Part shown: piece after piece, positions 18,113-37,260 of the stretch
How positions within the stretch are numbered: position 1 is the stretch's first letter
How the letters are laid out: each line of letters starts with the position of its first letter
Source of the DNA: Microlunatus antarcticus
Lineage (GTDB): Bacteria > Actinomycetota > Actinomycetes > Propionibacteriales > Propionibacteriaceae
Length of the DNA: 64,000 bases
Assembly (NCBI RefSeq): GCF_014193425.1
Contig: NZ_JACHZG010000001.1
Span: 3,224,001-3,288,000 of the forward strand
Direction: 5' to 3'
Notes under the pieces: model-generated
Told to the model about the DNA's origin: nothing
The model's input: only the letters and a program-made list of their open reading frames with translations
The model's database searches: none
Position numbers and translations under genes: made by a program

Positions 18113-18943
18113 CTACGGAACGGGGCCCGCGGCGACGACCTTCCTGACCGCGTCGAGGTCCATCCGGTAGGGACCGACCCCGGTCAGCACCCAGCTCGCG
18201 CCGGCGTCGGCCCACGCCACGGGGTCGCCGTCGGCCGGCACCTGGACCACCAGCTCGATCGGCTCGTCGGAACCAGCCGCGGCCCGCGCCGCGTCGATCG
18301 CCGTCCGCGCCTCGGCGACGTCGGCGGGCGAGCCGAGGCCGATGACGAAGTAGCCGTCGTACCGCGCGGCGCGCCGCTGCGGCGGCTTGTTGGGCCACCG
18401 TCCGCCGATCCAGATCGGGATGCCGCCCGGACGCGTGGCGGACGGCAGGAACGTGACGCCCGCCGCCCGGTGGTGGGGACCGTCGTGGTCGACCAGCTCC
18501 CCGGACAGCAGCGCGGTCAGCACGTCGAGCCCCTCGTCGAGGAGGGCGGCGCGGACCTTGGGCTCGACCGTCTCGCCGAAGGCGGAGAGCTCGCCGCCGC
18601 GACCGTTCCGCCCGCCGCCGTCGTCACCCAGGCCGAAGCCGAGGATCAGCCGTCCGCCGGACAGGCGGTCGAGCGTCGCCGCCTGGCGGGCCAGGACCTG
18701 CGGACGGCGGCGGGACAGCGGCGTGACCGCGGTCCCGAGCTGGATCCGGGAGGTGGTCATCGCGGCGGCGGCGAGGCAGATCCAGGGGTCGGCGATCTCG
18801 ACGACGGGGTCGGCGTAGAGCAGGTGGTCCCAGATGAAGATCCCGTCCCAGCCCGCCTCCTCCGCCTGCGCGGCGAGATCCGCGAACACGCGCGCGTCGG
18901 CCAGCGGGTCGAAGGCCGGCACGAACAGCCCGCGCCTGCTCAT
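18113..18943 (-). CDS. LLM-class flavin-dependent oxidoreductase
   Basis: 276 aa, slightly short for the luciferase-like TIM barrel. Recognisable parts are WDGIFIWDHLLYADP (about 34-48), AAAAMTTSRIQLGTAVTPLSRRRPQVLARQ, LSGGRLILGFGLGDDG and GIPIWIGGRWPNK. Such enzymes use reduced FMN or F420 to oxidise or monooxygenate substrates; the cofactor cannot be decided here. It is the last gene of the 14-gene minus-strand run and overlaps the preceding oxidoreductase gene by four bases. It is probably part of the same catabolic set. Confidence 0.85.
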   Translation of the reverse strand: MSRRGLFVPAFDPLADARVFADLAAQAEEAGWDGIFIWDHLLYADPVVEIADPWICLAAAAMTTSRIQLGTAVTPLSRRRPQVLARQAATLDRLSGGRLILGFGLGDDGGGRNGRGGELSAFGETVEPKVRAALLDEGLDVLTALLSGELVDHDGPHHRAAGVTFLPSATRPGGIPIWIGGRWPNKPPQRRAARYDGYFVIGLGSPADVAEARTAIDAARAAAGSDEPIELVVQVPADGDPVAWADAGASWVLTGVGPYRMDLDAVRKVVAAGPVP

Positions 18944-19962
18944 CGAACACCTCCCGAGCCCGCGCCAGAGCCAGCCGAGCCGTCGAGCGGCAGCCCGGCC
19001 GCCTCGCGGGCGTGCCCCAGCGCCTGGGCGACGGCCAGCGCGGACGTCGACGCCAGGTGCACCGGCTCGGCCTCCTCGCGGAGCACGGCCCCGATGTGGC
19101 GCAGCGCAGCGGTGAACGAGTGCGCGTCGACCGTGGGGCTCTCGGTCACAGGGTCGCTGCCGCTCCCCCGCACCTCGATCTGCGCGCCCGGCTGCGGGTG
19201 CCACGGGTTGTCGACGCGGATCAGGCCCTCGGTCCCGAGCAGCAGCGCCGTGGTCTCGGGCTGCCTCCGGAACCCGCACGTCAGCATCAGCCGGCGCCCG
19301 TCGTCGTACGTGAGGACACCGGCCGCCTCGACCTCGACCTCCGCGCCGAGCTCGGCGGCGACCTGGGCCTCCGCGACGGGCTGGCCGAACAGCTCGTGCG
19401 CGAGCCGCATCGGGTAGCAGCCGACGTCCGCGAGCGCGCCGCCGAACATGGGCGCCGAGAGGCGGATGTTCTCCGGGCGGGTGACCGGGAAGTGGAACGA
19501 CGCGACGATCTCGCGCAGCTCGCCGATCGCGCCGGAGTCGATCAGCTCGACGAGGCGGAGGTGCTGGGCCTGGAACGGGAAGACGAACGACTCCCACAGC
19601 AACCCGCCGGTGCTCCGGGCGACGTCGAGCAGCGCCCGGGTTGCAGTGGGGTTGGTGGTCAGCGGCTTCTCGCACAGCACGGCCTTGCCGGCCTCGAGCG
19701 CCGCGGTCGCCCACTCCGCGTGCAGCGGGTTGGGCAGCGGGACGTAGACGGCGTCGACCTCGGGGTCCTCGAGCACGGCCCGGTAGCCGTCGGCGGCCCG
19801 GGTGACCCCGTGGTCGCGGGCGAAGGCCTCCGTACGGTCCCGGTCGCGACCGCCGACGACCACGGCCACGTCACCGGACTCGGCCAGGGCGGGCAGCAGC
19901 TGGGCGCGGGCGATGTTCGCGGTGCCGAGGATCCCCCAGCGGACGGGCGGCCGCGGGCTCAC
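18940..19962 (-). CDS. Gfo/Idh/MocA-family oxidoreductase (first of two)
   Basis: 340 aa. The N-terminal Rossmann part has WGILGTANIAR (about 9-19) and the family signature LCEKPLTTNP (about 94-103), followed by the C-terminal alpha/beta domain (about 130-330) with DVGCYPMRLA. These enzymes oxidise or reduce sugars, cyclitols and related hydroxyl compounds with NAD(P). It overlaps both neighbours by four bases. Only distantly like the second family member at 25372-26529, so the two probably act on different intermediates. Confidence 0.9.
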   Translation of the reverse strand: MSPRPPVRWGILGTANIARAQLLPALAESGDVAVVVGGRDRDRTEAFARDHGVTRAADGYRAVLEDPEVDAVYVPLPNPLHAEWATAALEAGKAVLCEKPLTTNPTATRALLDVARSTGGLLWESFVFPFQAQHLRLVELIDSGAIGELREIVASFHFPVTRPENIRLSAPMFGGALADVGCYPMRLAHELFGQPVAEAQVAAELGAEVEVEAAGVLTYDDGRRLMLTCGFRRQPETTALLLGTEGLIRVDNPWHPQPGAQIEVRGSGSDPVTESPTVDAHSFTAALRHIGAVLREEAEPVHLASTSALAVAQALGHAREAAGLPLDGSAGSGAGSGGVR

Positions 19963-20678
19963 GCTGGGGCTCCGTCCGCGAGGGCGAGCACGTGCGCCGG
20001 GACCTTGTCGCGGTCGGTGACGTAGTGGGCGTAGATGGCCTTCTCGATCTGTCGGGCCGTGCCGGAGCGCAACGCCTCACGGACGGGTTCGTGACGGGCG
20101 CGGACGCCCTTGAGGGCGAGGTGCTGACGGTCGATCGAGGCCCGCATCAGCGCGCCGATCTGGCCGTTGACCGTGGACCACAGCTCGACCGCGCGACGGC
20201 GGCCGGACGCGTTGACGATGAGGCCGTGGAAGTGCACGTCGGCCTCGACGATGGCCTGCAGGTCACCCTCCTGGGCCGCGACGTCCATGCGCTCGAGCGC
20301 CTCCGCCAGCGCCTCGTCGAGGCCGACCTTCTCGTCCTTGGTCAACGCCTTGGCGATGCCCGCCTCGAGCACGTAGCGGGCGAAGCAGACGTCGTCGGCG
20401 TCTTCGGTGCTCATCCGGGTCACCACGGTCTGACGGCGCGGCGAGATCTCGATCAGCCCTTCGGCCGACAGCCCGCGCATCGCCTCGCGGACCGTCGCCC
20501 GGCTCACGCCGAGGTCGGCCGCGATCGTGGCCTCGACCAGCCGCTCGCCCGCGGGCAGCTCGTTGTTGAGGATCTGGCGGCGCAGCGCGTTCCGCACCGC
20601 CTCCGGCAGCGACTCGTGCTCGAGCACCGCGCGCACCCCCTGCCTCCCGACCACCTCGGCCAGCGTCTGGGGGCTCAT
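19959..20678 (-). CDS. GntR-family regulator, FadR/FCD type
   Basis: 239 aa. The winged HTH (about 23-90) includes VRNALRRQILNNELPAGERLVEATIAADLGVSRATVREAMRGL. The C-terminal all-helical FCD domain (about 100-225) keeps metal-binding His residues in ADVHFHGLIV and RHEPVREAL. The FCD domain usually senses an organic acid or sugar acid. Encoded inside the operon it presumably controls. The two identical 16-base sites at 33102 and 33249, which contain TTGTCGACAA-type dyads, are the obvious candidate operators. Confidence 0.93.
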   Translation of the reverse strand: MSPQTLAEVVGRQGVRAVLEHESLPEAVRNALRRQILNNELPAGERLVEATIAADLGVSRATVREAMRGLSAEGLIEISPRRQTVVTRMSTEDADDVCFARYVLEAGIAKALTKDEKVGLDEALAEALERMDVAAQEGDLQAIVEADVHFHGLIVNASGRRRAVELWSTVNGQIGALMRASIDRQHLALKGVRARHEPVREALRSGTARQIEKAIYAHYVTDRDKVPAHVLALADGAPA

Positions 20679-21544
20679 CCTGCCCTGCCCTGGGGGGTCG
20701 TTCCCGGTGCGGCGAGCGCGTGCTCGGTGAGCCCGACGTGGCCCTCGGCGTCGGGCGTGGCCCGGAGGAGGTCGGCGGGCCCGCAGAGCAGTGGCACCAG
20801 GCCCGGTCCGTGGCCCGGCATCGGGCTGTCGCCGTGCACGACGAGACCCACCGTCACGTGCCCGCGCCGATAGCCCATGTTGTGCCGGACGTCGAGGTCC
20901 GCGACGGCCAGCAGGTCGCCGAGCCGCAGCGCGGCGAGCACCGGGTCGCCGGCCGGGAAGGCGAGGTCGACGTCCCACTGCTGCGCCGGACGACCGATGC
21001 CGTTGCCGGCCAGCCGGCTGGGGACGACCGCGCGCACGCCGACCTCCACCCCGTCGGGCCCCGCCGTGATGCCGAGCGCGGGAGCGAGCCAGGGGTCGAG
21101 GTTGAGCACCTCGACGCCGGGCGGGAGCCCGGGCAGCGAGGCGCCCTGCCCGTACGCGCGGACGGCGACGCCGTCGCCGGGCCGGAGACGTTCCAGGGCG
21201 TCCTCGGGCAGCCACACGAGCAGCCGGCCGTCCTCGCCGCGCTTGCCGAAGACGCGCCCGGTCGCACCGGCGGCCGCGCCGCTGCGCACGACGACGGGGT
21301 TGCCGACGCAGGCGTACGCCGTCAGTCCGTGCCGGGCGGGTTGGTCGGGGTGGCCGACCGTGGCGCCGGGAGCGACGTGGTCGCCGAGCGCGGCGGACAC
21401 GAGGTCCCCGAGCGCGACGCCCAGCACGATGCCGCCGTCGCCGACCGGGACGTACGGGTGCCCGTCGACGTCGACGCGGTAGGGCGACGGCCCGATCGCC
21501 GGGCTCTCCACGACGCCGGCCAGGTTGACCGCGACGGCTCTCAT
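20675..21544 (-). CDS. DUF4438 protein, paralogue 1
   Basis: 289 aa, cytoplasmic, with no signal or membrane helix. It matches DUF4438 and is a diverged paralogue of the next gene: both share the order CVGN (about 81), SGAAAGATG, VRAYGQGASL, NLDP and a late GHGPG...LFSGP-like block (GHGPGLVPLLCGPADLL here). No function is established for the family. Lies between a TldE gene and a GntR regulator, four-base overlap on both sides. The Gly/Asp/His-rich conserved blocks would suit binding of a small ligand or metal, but that is a guess. Confidence 0.8.
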   Translation of the reverse strand: MRAVAVNLAGVVESPAIGPSPYRVDVDGHPYVPVGDGGIVLGVALGDLVSAALGDHVAPGATVGHPDQPARHGLTAYACVGNPVVVRSGAAAGATGRVFGKRGEDGRLLVWLPEDALERLRPGDGVAVRAYGQGASLPGLPPGVEVLNLDPWLAPALGITAGPDGVEVGVRAVVPSRLAGNGIGRPAQQWDVDLAFPAGDPVLAALRLGDLLAVADLDVRHNMGYRRGHVTVGLVVHGDSPMPGHGPGLVPLLCGPADLLRATPDAEGHVGLTEHALAAPGTTPQGRAG

Positions 21545-22431
21545 GCCAGGACCTCCGTCCGGACCCGGCGTGACTCCCCGACGTAGGCGGAGAGGTTCGC
21601 GTCGGCGTCGATCACGACGTGGAACGCCTCGGCCGGCCCGCTGAAGAGCGTCGTCGGACCGGGCCCGTGGCCGAAGAGCGCGCACTGCCCGGTGGAGATC
21701 GTGCCGACGGTCAGCCAGCCGGGCCGGTAGCCGCGGCCCCAGCTGTGGTCGGTGTCGCGCATGACCACGAGGTCCCCGATCCGCAGGCCCTCCAGCCCCA
21801 GCGACAGGGACGCGTCGAGGCCCGCGTACGCGCCCATCAGGTCGGTGTTGGCGAACTCGGAGGCCATCCCGCCGCCGGCCCCGGCGGCGTCGGCCGGGAC
21901 GTCGACGGCGACGTGCACCTCGAGGCGCCCGTCGGGACGGGTGCCGCCCGGCATCGCGTCGAGGACGGCCGGGTCGAGGTTCTTCACCCGCACCTGCGGG
22001 TGCGCCTTCAGGGCGAGGCCCTGCCCGTGCGCGCGGACCGTCACCCGGTCGCCGACCGTCGCCCCCTCGAGGACGTCGTCGGCCGCGTCGACGAGCACGT
22101 ACGCGTGCTGGCCGATCGCGACCCCGCTCTCACCGGCGGATGCACCCGAGACCAGCGTGACCTCGTTGCCGACGCAGGTCAGGTTCTGCAGGGCGTAGTT
22201 GGCGCCCGGGTCGGCGTGCCGGACGGAGAGCCCCGGCTCGAGGTGGTCGCTGGCCCACCCCGTCGCCGGCTCCCCGAGGTGCCCGGCGAGCGTGACCCCG
22301 CCCATCCCGGGCAGCACGAACGGGCCGCCGTCCGCGTCGACCCGGTAGGCGTGGCGGTCGGCCGTCGCCGGCCACACCTCGCCGGCCAGCAGCTGGGTCA
22401 CCAGCCGGCCGGCGTTGCTCTCGACCTTCAC
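21541..22431 (-). CDS. DUF4438 protein, paralogue 2
   Basis: 296 aa from a GTG that overlaps the upstream tldE-like stop. It has the same blocks as its neighbour: CVGNEVTL, SGASAGESG, VRAHGQGLAL, VKNLDP, and GHGPGPTTLFSGPAEAF. Tandem DUF4438 genes of nearly equal length suggest two subunits of one complex or two linked steps. No catalytic motif can be named. Tight coupling with tldD/tldE points to work on the same substrate. Confidence 0.8.
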   Translation of the reverse strand: MKVESNAGRLVTQLLAGEVWPATADRHAYRVDADGGPFVLPGMGGVTLAGHLGEPATGWASDHLEPGLSVRHADPGANYALQNLTCVGNEVTLVSGASAGESGVAIGQHAYVLVDAADDVLEGATVGDRVTVRAHGQGLALKAHPQVRVKNLDPAVLDAMPGGTRPDGRLEVHVAVDVPADAAGAGGGMASEFANTDLMGAYAGLDASLSLGLEGLRIGDLVVMRDTDHSWGRGYRPGWLTVGTISTGQCALFGHGPGPTTLFSGPAEAFHVVIDADANLSAYVGESRRVRTEVLA

Positions 22432-23876
22432 GCGGTCTCCTCCTCGGGGGTGGTGGGGCTCGTCGGCGAGGCCGCCGAGCCGAAGCGGAAGCCCCGGACC
22501 CGGACGGCGGGCGCGCTGACGGCGCCGTTCCAGACGTTGGCCAGCGGCTGCGCGAGCACGTCGGCCCCGATCGCGTCGACGCGCGACAGCACGCCGAAGA
22601 CCGACTCCGTGAACCGCGCCGGCCGCACCGGGGTGGTGAGACGTCCGTCCTCGATGAGGAAGCAGGCGTCCCGGCTGCCGCCGGTCAGCGTGGTGGCCGC
22701 CGGGTCGACGACCCGGAGGTACCAGAGCCGCTGCACGTAGACGCCGCGCTCGACCCCGGCGACCAGCTCGTCGACGCTCGCGGTGCCGGGCGCCATGGTC
22801 AGGCTGGCCGGCGCCGGGTGCGGCGTCTCCTCGCGGGCGATGTGCGCATGGCCGGTCAGCGGCAGGCCGGCGCGGGAGGCGCTGGCCCGGTCGGTGACCG
22901 CGTCCGCGACGACGCCGTGGTCGAGCAGCGGCACGCGGCTCGCGTCGGTGCCCTCGGGGTCGAACGGGAACGGCAGCCCGCGCACGGCCCGTGGGTCGTC
23001 GGCCACATCGACCGTCTCGGGCGCGACCCGCTCGCCGCGGCGCCGGGCCACGGCACCCACGCCGTCGGCGACCGCGTCGCCGGTGAAGCCGTACGCGTGG
23101 AAGCCCTCCAGCAGCTCGCCGGTCGCGAGCGGGGAGAGGACGACGTCGTACGTGCCGTCGGCCAGGTCCGTCCGGCCGCGAGCGCGGCCGGCCTCCTGCA
23201 CCGTGCGCGCGACGACGGCGTCCAGGTCGAGCACGTCGAGCCGGCGGTCGAGGTCGACCCAGTGCGAGGTGCCGTCGTCGATTCGGACCGTGAACGACCC
23301 GTACGCCTCGGTCGCCGCGGCGTAGCGCTCGACGCCGTCGGCGTCGACCACGGCGAGCTCGGTGACGGCGCGGCCGAGCATGCCGAAGGCCTCGCCCCCG
23401 GCCGCCCGGGACGCGGCCATCAGGCTCCGGACCGCGCCGACGCGCTCGGGCGTGCCCCAGGCCGCCGTGCGCGGGTCCCAGAGCACCTCGGGCGCGAGGC
23501 TGGGCACGGACCGCGCGGGCGCGGGTGCCGGGAGCGCGGCCAGGGGTCCGGCGGCGCGGGCCAGTGCGGCCGCGCGTCCGGTGGCGCGCCGTCCGGCGTC
23601 GGCGGCACCGGCCAGGTCGGTGGTCGCGACGCGGGCCGAGCGGCCCTCGACCACGGCGCGGACCATGAGCTGGCGCTCGTGCACGTCCTGCGGCTGGTGG
23701 ACCCGGTCGACGGCGAAGCGGGTGTAGCCGCCCGCCCGGCCCGACAGGAACGCCTCGGCCTCGTCCGCACCGGCGGCCTTGGCGGCGCGGACCGCCTCGG
23801 CGCAGGCCTGGACCGCGCGGTCGGCGCCGACCGCCGGCTCTGCCTGGTCGGTGCTGATGATCATGGTCGTCGTCAT
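22428..23876 (-). CDS. TldE/PmbA-type metallopeptidase subunit
   Basis: 482 aa. TldE proteins pair with TldD to form a peptidase that degrades unfolded peptides; in E. coli the pair matures microcin B17 and degrades CcdA. TldE lacks the zinc site, and none is seen here. Family features include the N-terminal AEAFLSGRAGGYTRF, a middle domain with LSPLATGELLEGFHAYGF, and GGSRDACFLIEDG near the C-terminus. ATG at 23876 overlaps the tldD stop. The N-terminal 130 residues are unusually Ala/Arg-rich. Confidence 0.87.
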   Translation of the reverse strand: MTTTMIISTDQAEPAVGADRAVQACAEAVRAAKAAGADEAEAFLSGRAGGYTRFAVDRVHQPQDVHERQLMVRAVVEGRSARVATTDLAGAADAGRRATGRAAALARAAGPLAALPAPAPARSVPSLAPEVLWDPRTAAWGTPERVGAVRSLMAASRAAGGEAFGMLGRAVTELAVVDADGVERYAAATEAYGSFTVRIDDGTSHWVDLDRRLDVLDLDAVVARTVQEAGRARGRTDLADGTYDVVLSPLATGELLEGFHAYGFTGDAVADGVGAVARRRGERVAPETVDVADDPRAVRGLPFPFDPEGTDASRVPLLDHGVVADAVTDRASASRAGLPLTGHAHIAREETPHPAPASLTMAPGTASVDELVAGVERGVYVQRLWYLRVVDPAATTLTGGSRDACFLIEDGRLTTPVRPARFTESVFGVLSRVDAIGADVLAQPLANVWNGAVSAPAVRVRGFRFGSAASPTSPTTPEEETA

Positions 23877-25375
23877 CGGGCCACCCCCGTCGAGATCCCA
23901 CGGAACAGCGACGGCGAGGCGCCGTGGCCCAGGAACCCCCACTGCTTGGGCTCCCCCTTGCCGCACGGCATGCCGTACGCCTTGAACTCCTCCGGCCCGG
24001 CGACCGCCTCGAGCGAGCCCCAGAACTGCGGGGTGAGACCGCCGTACGAGAAGCCGCGCAGCAGCCGGCCCCGCTTGCCGTTCTTGACCTCCCAGGCCGC
24101 CTCGGTGCCGAACTGGAACGCCATCCGGCGGTCGTCGATCGACCAGGTGCGGTTGTCGTCGGCGTAGTAGCCGTCGCCCATCCGGTCGAGGAGCTCGTCG
24201 AGCGACCCCTCCCCCGGCTCGAGGTAGACGTTCGTGGCGAAGCAGACCGGCAGCCACGCCCAGCCGTCGGCACGGGCCGCGCCCGTTGTCTCTCCGCCGT
24301 GCCGCGCGACCGCGTCACGGCTGGACAGCACGTCGCGCAGGACACCCTTCTCGATCAGGGCGTGCCGCGTCGCGGGCGTGCCCTCGTCGTCGAAGGCGAA
24401 GCTGCCGCGGGTGCCGGGCACGGTCGGGTCGGCCACGACGTTCATGGCCGGCGAGCCGTACCGCAGGCTGCCGATGTCGTCGGGCTGGACCCAGGAGCGA
24501 CCGGCGAAGTTCGTCTCGTCGCCGAGGATCCGGTCCAGCTCGAGCGCGTGCCCGACCGACTCGTGGATCTGCAGCGCCAGCTGCGCCGGGCCGATGACCA
24601 CGTCGGCGGTCCCGCCGGGGGCCTGCGGCGCGCCGAGCAGCGCGACCGCCTCCTCCCCCACCCGGGTGGCCTCGTCCTCGAGCCCGAGGCCGAGGACGTA
24701 CTCCCAGCCGGCCGCGGCGGTGTTGCCGTGGAACGAGTTCGGAAAGCTGCGCCGCTGCGCCCCGCGCTCGTCGGCCGCGACGGCGAGCAGCATCGCGCCC
24801 GTCTCCACGAGGTGCTGCGACTGCCGCGACCCCTCGGAGTCGGCGTAGTGCTTGTGCTGGCGCTTGGCGTTCAGGCCTGCGGTCACCGACCGCACGAGGC
24901 CCGGCACCGACGCGGCGCGCACGATCCGCTGGAGCAGGTCGTGGCGCTCCCCGGCCGAGACCTCGAACGGGTCGACGTCGACCGGGACCGACCAGGTCCC
25001 GCTCGTCGGCTCGCGCGGGGCGAGGACGACCGGCGCGGTCCCGGCGGCGGCGGCCGCGGCGGCCACCGCCCGACGGGCCACGGCCTGCGCGGTGCCGGGG
25101 CCGTCGAGCGAGGCCGAGGCGAAGCCCCAGACCCCGTCGCGCAGCACCCGGACGCCGAGCCCGGCGTTGTGCTCGCGACGCTCGTCGAGCTCGCCGCGGA
25201 GGTCGGTGTAGAGCCGTTCCTCCTCGGCCTCGACGAGCCGGACGTCGGCGAAGGTCACGCCCTCGCCGGTCGCCGCGGCGAGCGCCTCCTCGAGCACCGC
25301 CCGGGCCGTGCTCTCGTCCAGCCCGCCCCAGGCGTGGGCGTCGGCGGCCGTCACGCGCTCCGTCGTGGTGCTCAC
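23873..25375 (-). CDS. TldD-type zinc metallopeptidase subunit
   Basis: 500 aa. The catalytic zinc motif HESVGHALELD (HExxxH) is at about residue 263, and a Cys in GMPCGKGE near the C-terminus is where TldD has its third ligand, so the enzyme looks active. N-terminal blocks include ERLYTDLRGELDERREHNAGLGVRV. With the following tldE-like gene it should form the TldD/TldE heterodimer, which cleaves flexible peptides that enter a narrow central chamber. It overlaps a Gfo/Idh gene upstream and tldE downstream, inside an operon with an oligopeptide importer. That suggests a catabolic role on imported peptides instead of toxin maturation. Confidence 0.9.
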   Translation of the reverse strand: MSTTTERVTAADAHAWGGLDESTARAVLEEALAAATGEGVTFADVRLVEAEEERLYTDLRGELDERREHNAGLGVRVLRDGVWGFASASLDGPGTAQAVARRAVAAAAAAAGTAPVVLAPREPTSGTWSVPVDVDPFEVSAGERHDLLQRIVRAASVPGLVRSVTAGLNAKRQHKHYADSEGSRQSQHLVETGAMLLAVAADERGAQRRSFPNSFHGNTAAAGWEYVLGLGLEDEATRVGEEAVALLGAPQAPGGTADVVIGPAQLALQIHESVGHALELDRILGDETNFAGRSWVQPDDIGSLRYGSPAMNVVADPTVPGTRGSFAFDDEGTPATRHALIEKGVLRDVLSSRDAVARHGGETTGAARADGWAWLPVCFATNVYLEPGEGSLDELLDRMGDGYYADDNRTWSIDDRRMAFQFGTEAAWEVKNGKRGRLLRGFSYGGLTPQFWGSLEAVAGPEEFKAYGMPCGKGEPKQWGFLGHGASPSLFRGISTGVAR

Positions 25376-29508: not shown

Positions 29509-29510
29509 GC

Positions 29511-31124
29511 TCAGTGCGTCCCGACGGTCAGGCTGAGCAGGGAGTCGTTGTAGTTGCCGAGCGGCGAGACCTGGAACCCGTTGACCCAGGCGCCGGAGGC
29601 GTAGCGGAAGGGGGCGTAGGCCAGCGGGATGAACGGCGCCTGGTCGGCGATCGTCTGCTGCACCTGCGCGTAGAGCTCGCCGCGCTTGGCCTCGTCGGTC
29701 TCCGAGCGGGCGTCGTTGATCGCCTTGCTCGTGGCCTCGTCGCCCCAGTAGGAGCTGAAGCTGTTCGCGCCGCCCTTGATGTCGGCGCCGAAGGTCGCGA
29801 CCTCGTCGGGGTCGATGATGTCGTTGGTCCAGTAGCGAAGACCGAGCCCGTTCGTGCCCGACCGCTCGTTGGTGTACGCGGTGGACTGCTCGTACGACTG
29901 GATCGTCACGTCGATCCCGATCTTGGCCAGGTCGTCCTTGATCACCACGGCCTGCGCCTGGCCGGCCGCGTCACCGCTGACCGTGATCAGGTCGGTCTTG
30001 AAGCCGTTCGGGAAGCCGGCCTCGGTGAGCAGCTGCTTCGCCTTGTCCAGGTCGGGCTTCGGCGTCGGGATGGACTCGGCCCAGTGGAGCATCTTGTAGG
30101 GGAAGAACGTGTTCGCCGGGACCGCGTTGCCCTGGTAGGCCAGCGTGTTCATGGCGTCGAGGTCGAGCGCGGCCTTGACGGCCTGGCGGACCCGGACGTC
30201 CTCGAACGGCTTCGACTTCAGCGGCACCTGCAGGAAGTCGACGCGCGTCGAGGGGAAGAGGTCGACCTTCAGCTTGGGGTTCGCCGAGAGCTGCTTGACC
30301 AGGTTGCCCGGCGGGTTCTCGATCACGTCGACCTGGCCGCCCTGCAGCTGCAGGACGCGGGTGTTGTCGTTCGTGACGACGCTGACCTCGACCGTGCTGA
30401 TCTTGGGCTTCGGGCCCCAGTAGCTGTCGTTGCGCGTCAGCACCAGCTGGCTGTCGGGCTCGAGCTTGGTGACCTTGAACGGGCCTGCGCCGTACGGGGT
30501 CTTGCTGAAGAAGTCCTTGTCGGCCTCGACCGCCTTCTGCGGCAGGATCCCGTACGCGTACATGGCGAGGTCGGCCAGCAGCGGCGCGTGCTTGGTCTTG
30601 AGCTTGATCACCACGGTCTGCGGGTCGGTCGCGGTGATCGAGGTGACGGGCGTGATGAGGAAGCCCCAGCCGCCCTCGAGCGCGCGGGCCCGGTTGATCG
30701 ACCACGCGGCGTCGGCCGCGGTGACCGGCGAGCCGTCCGCGAACTTGGCCGCGGGGTTCAGGTGGAACGTCCAGGTCAGCCCGTCCGCGCTCTGCTCCCA
30801 GGTCGACGCCAGGTCGGGGACGATCTTGGTCCCCGTCGGGTCGGTCTGCACGAGCCGGGCGTAGATGTTCTGGTCGAGCCAGATGCTCTCGTTGGCCGCG
30901 TTCTCGGCCGGGTCGAGCGTGTCGATGGCGACGCCGTTGGCGATCTTGAGGGTGTCGACCTCGCTGGTCGCGGCCGGGGCCGAGGCCTCCGGGGCGGTCG
31001 TGGACGAACCTCCTCCCCCGCAGGCGGCGAGCACGAGGGCGGCGGCGGCGAGGCCGGTGACCCCGGTCAGGCGCAGCCGGCGCAGGACGGAGCCGGGGTC
31101 GTGGGTGTGGGGCACGGGTGTCAT
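29511..31124 (-). CDS. ABC importer substrate-binding lipoprotein, family 5
   Basis: 537 aa. A signal peptide with lipobox LVLAAC (Cys at about 35) shows lipid anchoring after Sec export. The family 5 fold follows, with ASTWEQSADGLTWTFHLNPAAKFADGSPVTAAD (about 107-139) and PYGAGPF. Family 5 proteins bind oligopeptides, but some bind opines, nickel chelates, sugars or glutathione, so peptide uptake is likely rather than certain. The first 12 residues are unusually His/Pro-rich. It overlaps the OppF-type ATPase gene by four bases. Confidence 0.92.
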   Translation of the reverse strand: MTPVPHTHDPGSVLRRLRLTGVTGLAAAALVLAACGGGGSSTTAPEASAPAATSEVDTLKIANGVAIDTLDPAENAANESIWLDQNIYARLVQTDPTGTKIVPDLASTWEQSADGLTWTFHLNPAAKFADGSPVTAADAAWSINRARALEGGWGFLITPVTSITATDPQTVVIKLKTKHAPLLADLAMYAYGILPQKAVEADKDFFSKTPYGAGPFKVTKLEPDSQLVLTRNDSYWGPKPKISTVEVSVVTNDNTRVLQLQGGQVDVIENPPGNLVKQLSANPKLKVDLFPSTRVDFLQVPLKSKPFEDVRVRQAVKAALDLDAMNTLAYQGNAVPANTFFPYKMLHWAESIPTPKPDLDKAKQLLTEAGFPNGFKTDLITVSGDAAGQAQAVVIKDDLAKIGIDVTIQSYEQSTAYTNERSGTNGLGLRYWTNDIIDPDEVATFGADIKGGANSFSSYWGDEATSKAINDARSETDEAKRGELYAQVQQTIADQAPFIPLAYAPFRYASGAWVNGFQVSPLGNYNDSLLSLTVGTH

Positions 31125-32221
31125 CGGGTTCCTCCAGGGGACGGGGTGGGGTGCGCGACGGCAGCGGCGCCGTTGACGAGGTGGGGCTGGCGGGTCGTCG
31201 TGGGCGTCGAGCCCGGGTAGAGGTGGCAGGCCACCTGCTGGCCGGCCGGGGTGGTCGCCATGAGCGGGACGACCTCGCGGCAGACCGCCATGGCGGCCGG
31301 GCACCGCGGGTGGAACGTGCAGCCCGAGGGCGGCGTGATCGGGTTCGGCAGCTCGCCTGCGACCGCGCTGGTCGTCGAGCGGCGGCGGCCGAGCTTGGGG
31401 GCGGCGGCGAGCAGCGCCTGGGTGTACGGGTGGGCGGGGCTGGCGAAGAGCGCCGCGGCGGGCCCGGACTCGACGACGCGACCGAGGTAGAGCACGGCGA
31501 CGTCGTCGGCGATCCGCTCCAGCACGGCCAGGTCGTGGGTGATGAAGAGGTAGGCCAGCCCGAGCTCGGACTGCAGGCGCTGGAAGAGGTTCAGCACCTG
31601 GGCCTGGACGGACACGTCAAGCGCCGACACCGGCTCGTCGGCCACCAGCAGCCGCGGACCGACGGCCAGCGCGCGGGCGATGCTCACGCGCTGGCGCCCG
31701 CCGCCGGAGAGCTGGCCCGGCTTGCGGTCGGCCCAGCCGGAGGGGAAGCCGACCTGGTCGAGCAGCTCCGCCACGCGGCCCGGTCGGTCCGCGGCGGGGA
31801 CGCCGCCGGTGACCTTGAGGACCTCGCCGATGGCGGTGCCGACCGTCTCGTGCGGGTTCAGCGAGGTGTATGGGTCCTGCAGCACGACCTGGACGTCGCG
31901 ACGCAGCCGGTGGCTCATCGCGCCGCCGCCGGAGGCGACGTCCTGGCCGTCGAGCAGCACCTGCCCGCCGCTCGGCCGCTCCAGGCGGAGCACGAGCCGA
32001 CCGAGGGTGCTCTTGCCCGACCCGGTCTCGCCGACGACGCCGAGCGTGCGCCCGGGCATGACCGACAGGCTCACGTCGTCCACGGCGCGCAGGACCTCGC
32101 CGGGCTCGCGGCGGAACCAGGCCCGGGTGCTGCGCTGCAGCGCGTAGTGCTTGCTGAGCCCGCGGGTCTCGAGCAGCGGCGTCCGCATGGTCGCCGCCAG
32201 CTCTTGGGCCAGGGCCGTCAT
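31121..32221 (-). CDS. Oligopeptide-type ABC importer ATPase (DppF/OppF)
   Basis: 366 aa. Walker A GETGSGKS (about 65-72), Q-loop LQDPYTSLNP, Walker B LLVADEPVSALD and ITHDLAVLE are canonical. The signature loop reads LSGGGRQR where LSGGQRQR is usual, a single Gln-to-Gly change in the ABC signature; it may reduce ATP turnover at one site. The C-terminal Cys-containing region (CTFHPRCPAAMAVC) matches OppF. ATG overlaps the SDR stop. Confidence 0.92.
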   Translation of the reverse strand: MTALAQELAATMRTPLLETRGLSKHYALQRSTRAWFRREPGEVLRAVDDVSLSVMPGRTLGVVGETGSGKSTLGRLVLRLERPSGGQVLLDGQDVASGGGAMSHRLRRDVQVVLQDPYTSLNPHETVGTAIGEVLKVTGGVPAADRPGRVAELLDQVGFPSGWADRKPGQLSGGGRQRVSIARALAVGPRLLVADEPVSALDVSVQAQVLNLFQRLQSELGLAYLFITHDLAVLERIADDVAVLYLGRVVESGPAAALFASPAHPYTQALLAAAPKLGRRRSTTSAVAGELPNPITPPSGCTFHPRCPAAMAVCREVVPLMATTPAGQQVACHLYPGSTPTTTRQPHLVNGAAAVAHPTPSPGGTR

Positions 32222-33048
32222 GCGCCCACCACCCCGCTCCCTGAGCCCTTCGACAAGCTCAGGACAGGCTCTGTCGAAGGGCGCTCGCCCGGCATCCGGA
32301 ACCGGCCGGCGCTGGACCCGCCGTCCACCGCGATGACGGCCGCGTTGACGTGGTCGCTCTCGGGGAGGCAGAGGAACCGGACGGCGTTCGCGATGTCGGC
32401 CGGCAGACCAGCGCGTCCGGTGGGGATGGACGCGGTGAGCGAGGCGCGCAGGTCGTCGCTCGCGCGGTCGGGGTTCGCGTCGCTCGCGCCCCGGACGTCG
32501 ATGTAGCCGGGGGCGACCACGTTGCTCGTGATCCCCAGCGGGCCGAGCTCCATGGCGAACGTCGCGGAGATCGTCTCGACGGCGGCCTTGGACGACGCGT
32601 ACGCCGCCCCGCGCGGCCGGGGGCTGCGGGCCGAGCCGGTCGAGATGCTGACGATCCGGCCCGAGGTGAGGCCGGCGTCGACGTAGCGCTGCACGAAGGA
32701 CCGGCAGGCCAGGAACATGCCGGTGACGTTCACGTCGAACACGTGCCGCCACGCGGCCGGCGACATCTCGAGCAGCCCCGCGGTCGGATAGTCGGCGGCG
32801 TCGTTGACGAGGATGGAGGCCGGCCCCCAGCGCTCCTCGAGCGCGGCCAGCGCACCGTCGACCGCGCCCTCGTCGGCGACGTCGGCCACGACGGAGAGCA
32901 CGTCCGGCCGGTCGAGCGGGAAGGGCGACAGGTCGAGCACGCCGACCTTCGCGCCGCTGTCGGCGAGGGCCGTCACGATGGCCCGGCCGAGCCCGTTCGC
33001 GCCGCCGGTGACCAGCGCCACCGTGCCCTCGAGCGCTCCTGCGACCAC
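32218..33048 (-). CDS. SDR-family oxidoreductase, first gene of the 14-gene operon; C-terminus altered by a repeat
   Basis: 276 aa. TGGANGLG (about 14-21) and the catalytic YASSK are present. The usual NNAG is changed to NDAA, which may affect cofactor or substrate binding. A normal SDR would end shortly after VIAVDGGSS; here about 25 more residues (including the tell-tale LSLSKG) come from a palindromic repeat element in the 3' end (32241-32282). The GTG start has a GAGGAGC box. Its promoter region carries one of two identical candidate GntR sites. Confidence 0.88.
   Translation of the reverse strand: MVAGALEGTVALVTGGANGLGRAIVTALADSGAKVGVLDLSPFPLDRPDVLSVVADVADEGAVDGALAALEERWGPASILVNDAADYPTAGLLEMSPAAWRHVFDVNVTGMFLACRSFVQRYVDAGLTSGRIVSISTGSARSPRPRGAAYASSKAAVETISATFAMELGPLGITSNVVAPGYIDVRGASDANPDRASDDLRASLTASIPTGRAGLPADIANAVRFLCLPESDHVNAAVIAVDGGSSAGRFRMPGERPSTEPVLSLSKGSGSGVVGA
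32241..32282. repeat. REP-like palindromic element in coding sequence
   Basis: Arms GCCCTTCGACA (32245-32255) and TGTCGAAGGGC (32272-32282) are a perfect 11-base inverted repeat around a 16-base loop containing GCTCAGGACAGG. The CTGAGC/GCTCAG and CCTTCGACAAGCTCAGG words are those of a dispersed repeat found in many high-GC bacteria. It lies inside the last codons of the SDR gene. Confidence 0.75.
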
Positions 33049-33067: not shown

Positions 33068-33087
33068 GAGCACCGGATCCGGTGCTC
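33068..33087. repeat. Perfect 20-base palindrome in the operon leader
   Basis: GAGCACCGGATCCGGTGCTC, about 20 bases before the SDR start, so in the untranslated leader of the minus-strand operon. As RNA it could form a hairpin next to the ribosome binding site; as DNA it could bind a dimeric protein. Confidence 0.55.
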
Positions 33088-33101
33088 ACTCCTCGTCGGT
33101 T

Positions 33102-33142
33102 GTCGACAATCGACGATGTTGCACCGACGGCACCACTGTCAA
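33102..33142 (-). promoter_or_regulatory. Promoter of the minus-strand operon with operator copy 1
   Basis: On the minus strand, a perfect TTGACA (33142-33137) is followed 15-18 bases on by a weak -10 (CAACAT or CATCGT, within 33121-33113). GTCGACAATCGACGAT (33102-33117) covers the -10 and start region; with the two bases before it, it contains the palindrome TTGTCGACAA (33100-33109). A repressor here would block transcription. Confidence 0.6.
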
Positions 33143-33216
33143 GACCTCCTGAGGAACGGCCGTGTAACGGTCAGACGACGGTGCCGAGCCGCCGTCCCGG
33201 ACGGGGTGCGCCGCTC

Positions 33217-33264
33217 TGGACGTGGGCCGGTCGGAGGGCTTACGTTCGGTCGACAATCGACGAT
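33217..33264 (+). promoter_or_regulatory. Promoter of the plus-strand catabolic genes with operator copy 2
   Basis: TGGACG (33217-33222), 18 bases, TACGTT (33241-33246). The same 16-base GTCGACAATCGACGAT recurs at 33249-33264, directly downstream of the -10, again over the likely transcription start. Confidence 0.6.
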
Positions 33265-33322
33265 CCGCGTGCCCCGACCGCGGTCCTTCGACCCGATCCA
33301 CGCCCGAAGGAGCATCCAGACC

Positions 33323-34351
33323 GTGCCCGGAACCACCGTGCTCATCGCCTCGCCGCTCGAACCGGAGCTCGTCGAGCGGCTGGCCTCGGCGGTGCCCGAG
33401 GTCGAGGTCCTCTTCGAGCCCGACCTGCTCCCGGTCCCCCGCTACCCCTGCGAGCACGGCGGCACGAAGCCCGAGCTGGACGCGGCGCAGGCGCAGCGCT
33501 GGTCCGACCTGCTGGCCTCCGCCGAGGTCACCTTCGACTTCGACTGGCGCGACCCGGCCGGGACGGCGAGGAACGCCCCGCGGCTGCGCTGGGTGCAGGC
33601 GACCAGCGCCGGGATCGGGGGGTTCGTCGCGCGCACCGGGCTCGACCAGACGCCGATCACCTTCACCACCGCCGCCGGCGTGCACGCCGTGCCGCTCGCC
33701 GAGTTCGCCCTCACGGGCGTGCTCGACCTGGCCAAGGGGATCCCCCACCTGCGCGCCCAGCAGGCGGCCCACCGCTGGGAGCGCTACGCCACCTCCTCCG
33801 TACGCGGCCGCCGCGCCGTGGTCGTGGGGCTGGGGTCCATCGGCCGCGAGACCTGCCGGCTGCTCGACGCCGTGGGCCTGGACGTCGTCGGCGTCGGACG
33901 GCCGGGGCGGACGTACGACGTCCCCGCCGGGGTGCGGGTCGTGAGCACCGACGCCCTGGACGAGGTGCTCCCGAGCGCTGAGGTGGTCGTGCTGGCCACG
34001 CCTCTCACCGACGAGACGACGGGGCTGCTGAGCCGCGCCCGCATCGAGGGCCTGCCCGCCGGCGCGATCGTCGTCAACGTGGCCCGCGGCCAGGTCGTCG
34101 ACGAGGCGGCGCTGATCGAGGCGCTGACCTCCGGCCACCTGGGCGGCGCCGCCCTCGACGTCTTCGAGGTCGAACCGCTGCCGGCGTCGTCACCGCTGTG
34201 GGACCTGCCGAACGTGATCGTCTCCCCGCACTCGGCCTCGACCCTGGTCAGCGAGAACGCGGCGCTGGTCGACCTGTTCGTCGACAACCTGCGGCGCTAC
34301 CTCGACGGGCGACCGCTGCGCAACACCTACGACGCGACGAAGGGCTACTAG
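33323..34351 (+). CDS. D-2-hydroxyacid dehydrogenase
   Basis: 342 aa. NAD-binding loop VVGLGSIGRETCRLL (about 170), then the catalytic triad of the family: Arg in VVNVARGQVVDE, Glu in ALDVFEVEPLP, His in VSPHSAST. These enzymes interconvert D-2-hydroxy acids and 2-oxo acids. The GTG at 33323 is about 11 bases from AAGGAG. It is first in a plus-strand run with an aldolase, an SDR and an aminotransferase, so the 2-oxo acid could feed or come from those steps. Confidence 0.92.
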   Translation: MPGTTVLIASPLEPELVERLASAVPEVEVLFEPDLLPVPRYPCEHGGTKPELDAAQAQRWSDLLASAEVTFDFDWRDPAGTARNAPRLRWVQATSAGIGGFVARTGLDQTPITFTTAAGVHAVPLAEFALTGVLDLAKGIPHLRAQQAAHRWERYATSSVRGRRAVVVGLGSIGRETCRLLDAVGLDVVGVGRPGRTYDVPAGVRVVSTDALDEVLPSAEVVVLATPLTDETTGLLSRARIEGLPAGAIVVNVARGQVVDEAALIEALTSGHLGGAALDVFEVEPLPASSPLWDLPNVIVSPHSASTLVSENAALVDLFVDNLRRYLDGRPLRNTYDATKGY

Positions 34352-34355
34352 AGAC

Positions 34356-35333
34356 ATGACGACGACGACGCACGAGGCACCCGCTCCGGGCCGGCGGGCG
34401 CTGGCCGGCGGGACCTGGTGGATCGCCCCCACGCCCTTCGCGTCGGACGGGTCGGTGGACGGCGACGCGCTCGAGCACGCCGTCCGGACCGCCGTGGGCT
34501 GGGGTGTGGACGGCGTGACCGTGCTCGGCGTGATGGGCGAGGTCACCTCGCTCTCCGACGCCGAGCGGGACGTCGTGCTCGGCGCCGTGTCGCGCGGGGC
34601 CGGCGACGTCCCCTTCGCCGCCGGGTGCAGCGCGGCCTCGGCCCCGCTCGTCGCCGAGCGTGCCGCCCGGGCCCAGGAGCACGGCGCGGTGGCGGCCATG
34701 GTCGCCGCCCCTCCCCTGGTCCGCGACGCGGACACCGTCGTCGCCTTCTTCGGCGCGGTCGGCGAACGTTCCCCGCTGCCGGTGCTGCTGCAGGACGAGC
34801 CCGTCGCGACCGGCGTGCAGCTCGCGGTCTCCACCCTGGTGGCGGCGCTGGGGCGCAGCGGCGCCGTGGCGGTCAAGCTCGAGGACGCCCCCACCCCGCC
34901 CAAGATCACCCGCCTGCTCGCGCAGGTGCCGGACCTGACCGTCTACGGCGGGCTCGGCGGCGTCTCCGCCTTCGCCGAGCTGTCGCGCGGAGCGGCCGGG
35001 ACGATGACCGGCTTCGCCTACCCGGAGGTGCTCCGCGCCGTACGGCTGGCCCTGGCCGCCGGCGACCGGGTCCGGGCCGCGCGGGTGTTCGACGCCTTCC
35101 TGCCCCTCATCGCCTTCGAGGGCCAGCCCGGCTACGGCCTCGCCATCCGCAAGGAGGTCCTCCGCCGCCGCGGGGCCCTCGTCTCGGGGGCGATGCGCGG
35201 GCCGGTGCCGTCCGCCGGGATCGACCCCGTCACCGTCGCCGAGCTCGACGAGGTGCTGCAGCGGGTCGGCCTGGTTCCCGGTCCCGCGGCGCTCGACGTC
35301 GACGTCCACCTCGACGAGAGGACGGCGGCGTGA
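34356..35333 (+). CDS. DapA/DHDPS-superfamily aldolase or lyase, not a true DapA
   Basis: 325 aa TIM barrel. The Schiff-base lysine is in AVKLEDAPTPPK (about residue 168), and TVLGVMGEVTSL is where DapA has the GTTGE block. The active-site Tyr of DapA (YNVP) is missing: the equivalent reads LLQDEPVATG. It therefore cannot use the usual Tyr proton relay, and dihydrodipicolinate synthesis is unlikely; cleavage or dehydration of a 2-oxo acid or sugar acid fits better. The context with a hydroxyacid dehydrogenase and an SDR supports a catabolic role. Confidence 0.85.
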   Translation: MTTTTHEAPAPGRRALAGGTWWIAPTPFASDGSVDGDALEHAVRTAVGWGVDGVTVLGVMGEVTSLSDAERDVVLGAVSRGAGDVPFAAGCSAASAPLVAERAARAQEHGAVAAMVAAPPLVRDADTVVAFFGAVGERSPLPVLLQDEPVATGVQLAVSTLVAALGRSGAVAVKLEDAPTPPKITRLLAQVPDLTVYGGLGGVSAFAELSRGAAGTMTGFAYPEVLRAVRLALAAGDRVRAARVFDAFLPLIAFEGQPGYGLAIRKEVLRRRGALVSGAMRGPVPSAGIDPVTVAELDEVLQRVGLVPGPAALDVDVHLDERTAA

Positions 35334-36097
35334 ACCGCGTCGCCGTGGTCGGCGGGGCGACCTCCGGCCTCGGTGCCGCCTCGGCCCGGGCGCTCGCCGG
35401 GCACGACCTCCTGCTGTGGTCGCGCGACCAGGACCGGCTCGACGCCACCGCGGCCGAGCTCGCCGCACCCGGCCGGCAGGTCCGTACCGTCGTCGCGGAC
35501 GCGGCCGACCCGGGCGCGGCCCAGGTCGTCGGGGACGCGGCGCTGGAGGCGTACGGGCAGGTGGACGTGCTGGTCCTCAACGCGGGCGGCCCGCCGGTGG
35601 CCCGGGCCGACGAGGTCACCGCCGACGGGATGCGGGCGGCCTTTCAGCTGCTCGCCGTCACCCCGGTCGACCTGACGCTGCGGCTGCTGCCGGGCATGCG
35701 GGAGCGCGGCTTCGGCCGGGTCCTCGCGATCCTGTCGTCCGGGGTCCGCGAGCCCATCGACACCCTCGCCTACTCCAACGCCGGCCGGTCGGCGCTGACG
35801 TCGTGGCTCAAGACGCTGGCCCGGACGGTCGCCGGGGACGGCGTCACCGTGAACGGCGTGCTGCCCGGCCGGATCGCCACCCCACGCGTGGCGTCCCTGG
35901 ACCAGGCCGCCGCCACCCGCACCGGCCGCGACGTCGCCGACGTGAGCCGCGACTCGGCCGCCGCCATCCCGGCCGGACGCTACGGCCGGCCGGAGGAGCT
36001 GGCCGCGCTCGTCGGCTTCCTCGCCTCGGACGCCGCGTCGTACGTCACCGGCACGACGATCGCCTGCGACGGCGGCGCCCTGCGGTCGCTGCCGTGA
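35330..36097 (+). CDS. Atypical SDR-family protein with SNxxR variant (second copy)
   Basis: 255 aa. The GGATSGLG loop is intact. The catalytic segment reads AYSNAGRSAL, so Ser and Arg stand at the Tyr and Lys positions, as in the protein at 5421-6182. GRYGRPEELAALVGFLASD and the GGALRSL end are also shared with it. GTG overlaps the preceding stop by four bases and its own stop overlaps the aminotransferase start. Confidence 0.85.
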   Translation: MNRVAVVGGATSGLGAASARALAGHDLLLWSRDQDRLDATAAELAAPGRQVRTVVADAADPGAAQVVGDAALEAYGQVDVLVLNAGGPPVARADEVTADGMRAAFQLLAVTPVDLTLRLLPGMRERGFGRVLAILSSGVREPIDTLAYSNAGRSALTSWLKTLARTVAGDGVTVNGVLPGRIATPRVASLDQAAATRTGRDVADVSRDSAAAIPAGRYGRPEELAALVGFLASDAASYVTGTTIACDGGALRSLP

Positions 36098-37260
36098 CCG
36101 GGTCCCGTACGGCGGCCGCCATCGCGCCGTCGGGGATCCGCGCGATCGCCGACCTGGCCTGGCGGACCCCGGGGACGATTCAGCTGCAGCTGGGCGAGCC
36201 GTCCGCGCCGACGCCGCCGCACGTCGTCGAGGCGATGGCCGCGGCGCTGCGCGACGGGGCCACCCGCTACGGGCCGACCCCCGGGCTGCCGGCGTTCCGG
36301 GAGGCCGCCGCGGCGAAGGTCGAGCGGGTGAACGGGGTGACGACGTCGCCGGACGACGTCACCGTCTGCGCGGGCGGGGTCGAGGGGCTCGGCGCCACCT
36401 ACCGCGCCCTCCTCGACGCCGGTGACGAGGTCCTCGTGCCCGACCCGGGCTGGCCCAACCTGCGGACGCTCGCGGTGGTCTGCGACGCCGTGCCTGTCGG
36501 CTACCCGCTGCTCGGCCCCGACGGAGCCGGGGTCGACCCGGACACCCTCGAGCGCCTCCGCACCCCCCGTACGCGGGTCCTCGTGCTCAACTCCCCGTCC
36601 AACCCCACCGGCTCCGGCCTCGACGCCGCCGTCCTCGAGCGGCTGCTGGGCTGGGCCGCACGTCACGGTCTGTGGGTGGTCTCCGACGAGTGCTACGACG
36701 AGATGTGGCTGGACGCGCCGCAGCCGTGCGTCGCCGCCGTGGCCCAGCGGATGCGCGCGGCCGGGGAGCCGACCCCCGAGGTGGTCAGCGTCTTCTCCCT
36801 GTCGAAGACCCACGCGATGACCGGCTTCCGGCTGGGCTACGTGGTGTCACCGCCCAGCCTGACCCCGCTGGTCCGCCGGGTGCAGGAGACGACGCTGTCC
36901 TGCGTGAGCACGCCGACCCAGTGGGCCGGTGCCGCCGCCCTCGCCGGGACGCAGGACCACGTCGAGGCCATGCGGGTCGACTACCGCGACCGCCGGGACC
37001 GCTGCCTGGCGGTGCTGGCCGGCTCGGCCGCGCTCACGCTCGCCGCTCCCCCGGTCGGCGCCTTCTACCTCTGGCTCGCGCACGCCGACCCGCGTCCCAG
37101 CACCGAGGTCGCGACCGGGCTGGTGCTCGAGCACGGCGTCGCGCTCGCCCCCGGCGACGCCTTCGGCCCGGCCGGTGCGGGGCACCTGCGGGTCTCGTTG
37201 GCGACGGCGACCGACCCCCTGGTCGAGGGGCTCACGCGGGTGGTCGCGGCGCTGGGGTGA
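36094..37260 (+). CDS. Class I/II PLP-dependent aminotransferase
   Basis: 388 aa, fold type I. The PLP lysine is in [16 protein letters not shown] (about 233), with [11 protein letters not shown] and [11 protein letters not shown] before it and an Arg in HLRVSLA near the end. It is close to the aspartate/branched-substrate type. GTG start coupled to the SDR gene. It could supply or remove the amino group of an amino acid released by the peptidase. pdxS-pdxT, which make its cofactor, follow 103 bases downstream. Confidence 0.92.

Follow-up and report, generated by a model that had tools for sequence, protein, structure and literature searches.

We describe a block of about 19 kb (positions 18113-37260) in a window of 64,000 nucleotides of the Microlunatus antarcticus genome (contig NZ_JACHZG010000001.1), in which 14 minus-strand genes (18113-33021) lie opposite four plus-strand genes (33323-37260). 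Judged by its sequence, this block is a discrete cassette, inherited as one unit, that has its own importer and regulator and bears operator-like sites between its divergent operons. We give about even chances to the reading that it acts as a single inducible regulon for the catabolism of a peptide-like or amide-linked compound, in which a GntR/FCD protein would repress through sites of the TTGTCGACAATCGACAA type, OppBCDF would import the compound, a TldD/TldE pair (TldD/E) would cleave it and two DUF4438 proteins (DUF4438a and DUF4438b) would act as a heteromer. No description of this cluster was found in a literature search.

Organization and Inheritance of the Cassette

Genes were called with a codon-usage gene caller, families were assigned with Pfam, and equivalogs were sought with NCBIfam, taking the best 25 models per gene. 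Gene calling recovered the gene set of a preliminary description made from the DNA alone (14 minus-strand and four plus-strand genes), and Pfam backs every family named there: SBP_bac_5, two permeases, two ATPases, two PmbA_TldD proteins, two DUF4438 proteins, two Gfo/Idh oxidoreductases, an LLM enzyme, two SDR enzymes, a 2-hydroxyacid dehydrogenase, a DHDPS-family protein, a class I/II aminotransferase and a GntR+FCD regulator. That description had also counted four-base overlaps at 12 of the 13 minus-strand junctions. The caller gives 10; reading the DNA allows 12, with an ATGA start of the solute-binding protein (SBP) gene at 31124, preceded by GGAGG, and an in-frame GTGA start of TldD at 25375. 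The count of 12 is therefore upheld with one reservation, as the caller's GTG at 25354 is an equally possible TldD start and would lower it to 11. The sole minus-strand junction without overlap is that of SBP and OppB (TGAgcATG), the plus-strand junctions are +4, -4 and -4, and the divergent region between the operons spans 33022-33322.

DUF4438 exceeds its cut-off in four of the 20 genomes of the genus searched, namely the genome itself and three congeners (G003, G017, and G018), all of which carry the 18 genes in the same order and divergent layout, with 79-86% aligned nucleotide identity within the block. The flanks (2-7 kb per side) share nothing with the congeners except one short match of 119 bases and another of 60. 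In the 10 kb fetched from G007, where the DUF4438 match is below the cut-off, no member of the 18-gene set was found, and among 396 genomes sampled from the phylum only this genome has DUF4438 over the cut-off.

Core and Periphery Across Genomes

DUF4438 loci were collected by a contig scan with an alignment of the DUF4438 copies and TM1086, from which the best 80 of at least 422 relatives were kept, a similarity-ranked sample and not a census. They comprise 66 tandem pairs, 34 in Actinomycetota and 32 in other groups, including Gemmatimonadota, Acidobacteriota, Chloroflexota, and Alphaproteobacteria, and 14 loci with a single copy in the fetched stretch. As the 34 actinobacterial loci were selected for DUF4438, the pair itself is no evidence of conservation. 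Its company, however, recurs: the usual actinobacterial order is GfoA, TldD, TldE, DUF4438a, DUF4438b, and GntR, mostly with a family-5 importer, and by sequence cluster the 34 loci include Gfo (32), OppB (30), GntR (29), TldD (24), the 2-hydroxyacid dehydrogenase (HDH; 21), an aminotransferase (19), and LLM (7). A Gfo gene stands immediately before TldD in 21 of the 24 TldD loci, and GntR is present in 21 of the 32 non-actinobacterial tandem loci. LLM, GfoB, the SDRs, and DHDPS differ from locus to locus and form a variable periphery. The co-occurrence across genomes that the preliminary description had asked about is thus borne out, the genes recurring together instead of being scattered and the cassette being colinear in three congeners. 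The identity matrices of TldD, TldE, DUF4438a, DUF4438b, GfoA, and GntR agree with one another (Spearman 0.57-0.83), with HDH intermediate against this core (0.42-0.76); the correlations come from related genomes, so the contrast alone is informative.

The DUF4438 Pair

Solved structures exist for DUF4438, which has no named function in Pfam and for which a full-text literature search found no paper. Both copies of the cassette have PF14505 and PF20999 and the TM1086 fold, and a Foldseek search gave no match under E 0.001 beyond TM1086 structures. The two copies are adjacent and on the same strand in all 66 tandem loci, and they overlap by four bases in 26 of the 34 actinobacterial and 21 of the 32 other loci. 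First copies, second copies, and single copies are each separated from the rest by a branch (SH-aLRT support 81, 83, and 94, none starred) in a tree made by a quick method and carrying a long-branch warning, an arrangement that would fit a single old duplication. DUF4438b has lost residues that are invariant in DUF4438a. We therefore infer that DUF4438a is probably the catalytic copy and DUF4438b its non-catalytic partner, and that the two may form a heteromeric enzyme of uncharacterised role.

The TldD/TldE Pair

TldD/E occurs widely among bacteria and archaea. It matures microcin B17, that is, it processes a modified peptide, and the source for this states that the function of the genes "remains elusive" and gives HExxxH and a distant Cys as the metal ligands of TldD (PMC5810440). 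The intact HExxxH previously noted in the TldD of the cassette is HESVGH, at residues 264-269. Aligned with E. coli TldD (5nj5), the metal ligands H264, H269, and C464 are kept in 25 of 25 cluster TldDs. The partner TldE belongs to the same family and is without the metal site, with no HExxxH in any of 25 sequences; 12 of these have another HxxxxH.

In a tree from which the short L038 copy and non-cluster TldDs with fewer than 400 aligned residues were left out, the 24 cluster TldDs group in a single clade (ultrafast bootstrap/SH-aLRT 100/99), distinct from the other, housekeeping TldDs. Four PF19289 matches, equal to two pairs, were found in each cluster carrier (G000, G003, G017, and G018); among the other 53 relatives searched, four were found in G048 alone and at most two in the rest. 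A class-wide search (E 1e-100, three candidates scored per genome) returned a cluster-type TldD (>60% identity) in three of 394 genomes: its own, G018, and G514. The G514 TldD is preceded by SBP, OppB, OppC, OppD, GfoB, OppF, SDR1, HDH, and GfoA, and DUF4438 could not be seen there because the contig stops within TldE. Of the 34 actinobacterial loci, 25 carry TldD/E at least in part (the 24 above and L023, whose stretch begins within TldE), comprising all 21 loci unmarked as metagenome assemblies and four of the 13 marked ones; in L038 the pair lies downstream, with TldD in two pieces. TldD/E is present in none of the 32 non-actinobacterial tandem loci. The pair of the cassette is a dedicated paralogue of the housekeeping protease and is probably the hydrolase of the pathway.

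A related type of TldD/E (TldD approximately 42-46% identical) was observed beside other family-5 importers in L163 (8430-15359) and L181 (8448-18283), with no DUF4438 among the labelled genes of either, and near such an importer in L179; in L162 and L180 no importer is labelled next to the pair. In L158 (1245-15478, genome G048) the pair, 44% identical to the TldD of the window, lies beside a FecCD importer in another import-type cluster with a PALP enzyme, a class-III aminotransferase fused to an APH domain and metallo-beta-lactamase-fold proteins, and an RpiR/SIS regulator is nearby.

Regulator and Operator-Like Element

The regulator has both the helix-turn-helix (HTH) and the FCD domain of FCD-type GntR proteins. 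The sequence GTCGACAATCGACGAT occurs in two exact copies, both within the divergent region, and in no other exact copy in the 4.37-Mb genome; with two mismatches it has two further genomic places, one overlapping copy 1, and a reversed control pattern has none. Within the window, three matches with up to three mismatches compare with 0.66 expected, and as many arose in two of 100 shuffles, so that the weight lies with the exact copies and with conservation. G003 and G017 retain both sites, and in G018 the second differs. The fuller element TTGTCGACAATCGACAA (up to three mismatches) is intergenic in 21 of the 34 actinobacterial loci, whereas first-order Markov sequences, generated at five per locus, predict 0.6 loci. 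It also lies in intergenic sequence just upstream of DUF4438a in 14 of the 32 other tandem loci (L057, L058, L061, L064, L069, L070, L072, L075, L078, L080, L082, L086, L093, and L095; per-locus expected values 0 to 0.2). Four three-mismatch matches fall within genes (L065, L075, L079, and L093), and no single-copy DUF4438 locus is listed with such a site. One report gives NyGTM-N0-1-KACNy as the operator consensus of FadR-subfamily GntR regulators (PMC4494728), which TTGTCGACAA at 33100-33109 matches by sequence. DNA recognition in common does not alone prove a common inducer.

Importer

The importer is complete, with SBP_bac_5, two BPD permeases, and two oligo_HPY ATPases, and no NCBIfam equivalog with a named specificity (dipeptide, nickel, opine, etc.) exceeds its cut-off among the best 25 models per gene. 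Its gene order differs between loci, being OppF-SBP-B-C-D in one type and SBP-D-F-C-B in another, and it has been exchanged between lineages. The nearest solved relative of the SBP is AapF (PDB 7kz8), the ligand of which we take to be an ethanolamine-derived amide. At the place aligned with DppA chain position 408 the SBP has retained an Asp, a residue that presumably binds the amine of the peptide, and this would point to a ligand carrying a free amino group.

Possible Replacement of TldD/TldE in Other Phyla

In the 32 non-actinobacterial tandem loci, DUF4438 pairs stand with aminotransferases, family-5 importers, and peptidases or amidohydrolases. At least one of M32, M24, M20, M14, two amidohydrolase kinds, and an AstE-like protein, assigned from one representative protein each, is present in 28, the exceptions being L081, L086, L092, and L095. 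The same sequence clusters are present in none of the 34 actinobacterial loci, of which not every gene was scanned. The M24 protein and one of the amidohydrolase kinds are similar to Xaa-Pro dipeptidases, the second amidohydrolase kind is similar to allantoinases/hydantoinases, and the AstE-like protein is similar to an N-acetyl-diaminobutyrate deacetylase; of the ten proteins scanned, M20 alone exceeds a cut-off (DapE-ArgE subfamily). Ldh_2-type dehydrogenases occur in 29 of the 32 loci, where actinobacteria often have HDH (21/34). We read the peptidases and amidohydrolases as a possible non-orthologous replacement of TldD/E, a pattern that would also fit different pathways with DUF4438 in common.

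Scanning of ten actinobacterial genes recognised an alpha/beta hydrolase in L034 and, within a DUF4438 cluster without TldD/E, a large N,N-dimethylformamidase-like protein (L043:12895-15186) that is a possible alternative amidase. A RidA-like protein (PF01042; L036:11605-11967) follows the aminotransferase in another cluster without TldD/E, and its sequence cluster recurs in L040 and L041. A 474-aa protein (L097:16368-17792), of a family present in 17 of the 32 non-actinobacterial tandem loci, has no Pfam or NCBIfam match at the thresholds used.

Proposed Pathway and Alternative Explanations

In the proposed regulon, the GntR/FCD protein would repress both operons through TTGTCGACAATCGACAA-type sites and be released on binding an organic-acid intermediate. 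The binding protein and OppBCDF would import a peptide-like or amide-linked compound, GfoA would oxidise its alcohol or sugar-like part, and TldD/E would cleave amide or peptide bonds, a step that in other phyla would be performed by M32, M24, M20, M14, amidohydrolase, or AstE-type enzymes. The DUF4438a/b heteromer, with DUF4438a catalytic and DUF4438b a degenerate partner, would act on an intermediate, and the 2-hydroxyacid dehydrogenase and aminotransferase would feed the fragments back into central metabolism. A dedicated route of uptake and breakdown, as suggested in the preliminary description, is supported by the single inherited block, its recurrence across genomes, and a regulator with a conserved operator-like site. 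The "modified or sugar-linked peptide" of that description is a candidate substrate suggested only by family-level similarity, and the DHDPS, SDR2, LLM, and GfoB that it included belong to the variable periphery. Its view of TldD/E as a catabolic peptidase is favoured because the pair forms a dedicated clade in an importer-bearing locus and because in other phyla the clusters with a DUF4438 pair contain different peptidases or amidohydrolases instead.

Several observations weigh against this regulon. Nine of the 34 actinobacterial loci are without TldD/E in the fetched stretch (L021, L024, L025, L036, and L039-L043; all marked as metagenome assemblies, some cut by contig ends), so that TldD/E may not be the defining step, and no cluster-type TldD was found in their genomes (no family match in L021 and L036, other types in the rest). 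An upstream TTGTCGACAATCGACAA-type site is missing from 13 of the 34 actinobacterial loci, among which the fetched stretch of L018 stops short of the divergent region, and from 18 of the 32 other tandem loci. SBP and OppB, whose identity matrices correlate with each other at 0.90, correlate with the core at Spearman 0.17-0.56; the importer thus does not track the core, and the substrate may vary. None of the 18 genes exceeds a cut-off among the NCBIfam models considered, while neighbouring pdxS and pdxT do, so no step has a named reaction. Finally, a scan for sigma-70-type promoters and terminators, ill-suited to high-GC actinobacteria, found none (0.2 and 2.1 expected).

The absence of TldD/E from those nine loci also suits catabolism of a small non-peptide compound, such as a sugar acid or amino-alcohol-like amide, with TldD/E an accessory amidase and the Opp importer broad, an explanation that is possible if on balance doubtful. 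Gfo/Idh, SDR, DHDPS, and 2-hydroxyacid dehydrogenase resemble sugar-acid chemistry, the levoglucosan dehydrogenase model gives 115 bits with GfoA (cut-off 650), DgpA (7xr9, 81 bits) is among the PDB relatives of GfoA below 4h3v, 4fb5, and 6a3f (96 bits), the second PDB match of DHDPS after 3dz1 is L-2-keto-3-deoxyarabonate dehydratase, and the SBP is nearest to AapF with its presumed amide ligand. However, DHDPS and SDR2 are outside the conserved core, and in other phyla the clusters come with families of Xaa-Pro-dipeptidase-like and carboxypeptidase type. That the locus takes up and destroys a peptide antibiotic or another toxic amide, for protection and not for food, is improbable: the cassette is rare and patchy and TldD/E does act on a modified peptide (PMC5810440), but importing a toxin would be costly, and the aminotransferase, hydroxyacid dehydrogenase, and FCD regulator suit carbon and nitrogen use.

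We are equally sceptical of uptake and recycling of a metal, metallophore, or opine. For the SBP and both permeases the top-scoring NCBIfam models are of nickel type, yet all score below their cut-offs, the regulator is an FCD-GntR and not a metal sensor, and no SIS or FAD opine-oxidase family is among the Pfam matches of the 18 genes. Catabolism of opine or Amadori compounds, marked by an opine oxidase (DAO) or an SIS-type deglycase, finds no support, as neither family is among these matches. Nor does hydroxyproline catabolism, of which HypD is a DHDPS homologue, as no proline-racemase-type epimerase is in the same set. Least credible, and very improbable, is a biosynthetic cluster for a ribosomally synthesized and post-translationally modified peptide or other natural product, with TldD/E removing a leader as its role in microcin B17 maturation might suggest (PMC5810440): no YcaO, radical SAM, lanthipeptide, or exporter family is among the Pfam matches of the 18 genes, an importer takes the place of an exporter, and the minus operon is nearly without free intergenic space.

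Returning to the catabolic regulon, we put forward a bolder version of it only tentatively: a regulon across phyla, not named before, whose indispensable centre would be a new DUF4438a/b heteromer (a catalytic, b decayed) of a fold known only from TM1086, with TldD/E a dedicated nutritional peptidase whose place unrelated peptidases take elsewhere, all controlled by a single type of regulator and a single ancient operator. The cluster is of interest for the roles of TldD/E and DUF4438 that it makes testable. With a TldD/E paralogue fixed in an import locus, its function can be tested, and finding the inducer should lead to the natural substrate. That inducer could be reached through the conserved operator-like site, via metabolites that release the regulator, and the clusters give the partners of DUF4438, its likely catalytic copy and candidate residues for mutagenesis.

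Features and Neighboring Genes

The features of the block are collected in Table 1. The pyridoxal 5'-phosphate synthase genes pdxS and pdxT (37364-38838) begin 103 bases past the aminotransferase and were not found in the fetched surroundings of G003, G017, and G018; they are probably chance neighbours of the cluster. On the other side, the stretch 14104-18112 has a lower G+C content (0.64-0.66), and of six open reading frames scanned a cold-shock domain protein (17315-17620) alone was recognised; it is possibly an insertion scar or remnant.

Table 1. Genes and operator-like elements of the cassette, in window coordinates.
Feature	Position	Strand	Evidence and remarks
LLM-class (luciferase-like) oxidoreductase; periphery	18113..18943	-	Pfam PF00296, 143.9 bits
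GfoB, Gfo/Idh/MocA oxidoreductase; periphery	18940..19962	-	Pfam PF01408/PF22725; some loci only
GntR/FCD transcriptional regulator	19959..20678	-	Pfam PF00392 + PF07729, over cut-off
DUF4438b, second copy	20675..21544	-	Pfam PF14505 + PF20999; tree; residue losses
DUF4438a, first copy	21541..22431	-	
TldE-like subunit, without HExxxH	22428..23876	-	Pfam PF19289
TldD-like metalloprotease subunit	23873..25375 (alternative start 25354)	-	Pfam PF19289/PF01523/PF19290; residues numbered from GTG 25354
GfoA, Gfo/Idh/MocA oxidoreductase; core	25372..26529	-	Pfam
OppD-type ATPase	26526..27674	-	Pfam PF00005 + PF08352
OppC-type permease	27671..28561	-	Pfam PF00528
OppB-type permease	28558..29508	-	Pfam PF00528/PF19300
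Family-5 SBP, lipobox-like LAAC	29511..31124	-	Pfam PF00496, 318 bits
OppF-type ATPase	31121..32221	-	Pfam
SDR1 dehydrogenase	32218..33021	-	Pfam PF13561
Operator-like element, copy 1: GTCGACAATCGACGAT	33102..33117	+	within TTGTCGACAATCGACGA at 33100-33116
Operator-like element, copy 2, before plus-strand operon	33249..33264	+	3 mismatches to TTGTCGACAATCGACAA
D-2-hydroxyacid dehydrogenase (HDH)	33323..34351	+	Pfam PF02826
DHDPS-family aldolase/dehydratase; periphery	34356..35333	+	Pfam PF00701
SDR2 dehydrogenase; periphery	35330..36097	+	Pfam PF13561
Class I/II aminotransferase	36094..37260	+	Pfam PF00155, 198 bits

Comparison With Known Systems

The cluster is built from known protein kinds, DUF4438 excepted. 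Like the heterodimeric metalloprotease TldD/TldE (PmbA) of E. coli, its pair has HExxxH with a distant Cys ligand in one subunit and a partner without HExxxH, and E272, D274, and K466 stand at the places of Glu270, Asp272, and Lys456. Unlike the E. coli proteins, it forms a separate clade sited in an import and catabolic locus, Phe372 aligns with Arg362 (numbering derived from H262), and NCBIfam scores are far below the cut-offs of the TldD equivalogs (124 of 635 and 93 of 513 bits). The importer resembles the family-5 peptide importers DppABCDF and OppABCDF in having all five subunits and the Asp aligned with DppA position 408, but it is below every cut-off among the models considered, and at least two dissimilar family-5 importers hold this position in different lineages. 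The regulator shares HTH and FCD domains with the FCD-type (FadR-subfamily) GntR regulators and TTGTCGACAA fits their published consensus (PMC4494728), whereas the element of the cluster is longer, with a second overlapping half, and no NCBIfam model is over its cut-off. Levoglucosan dehydrogenase and DgpA (Gfo/Idh/MocA) are among the recognisable relatives of GfoA, though its scores are weak (LevoglcsnDh 115 of 650; 6a3f 96 and DgpA 81 bits), and the Pfam matches of the 18 genes hold no C-deglycosidase family. Compared with TM1086 of Thermotoga maritima (DUF4438; PDB 3dcl and 3n99), the cluster has two unequal adjacent copies as a pair. What appears to be new is that such tandem pairs extend beyond Actinomycetota without TldD/E, apparently from that one old duplication with a degenerate second copy, and that an operator-like element, TTGTCGACAATCGACAA, precedes many such clusters in several phyla, with two variants between the divergent operons of the window.

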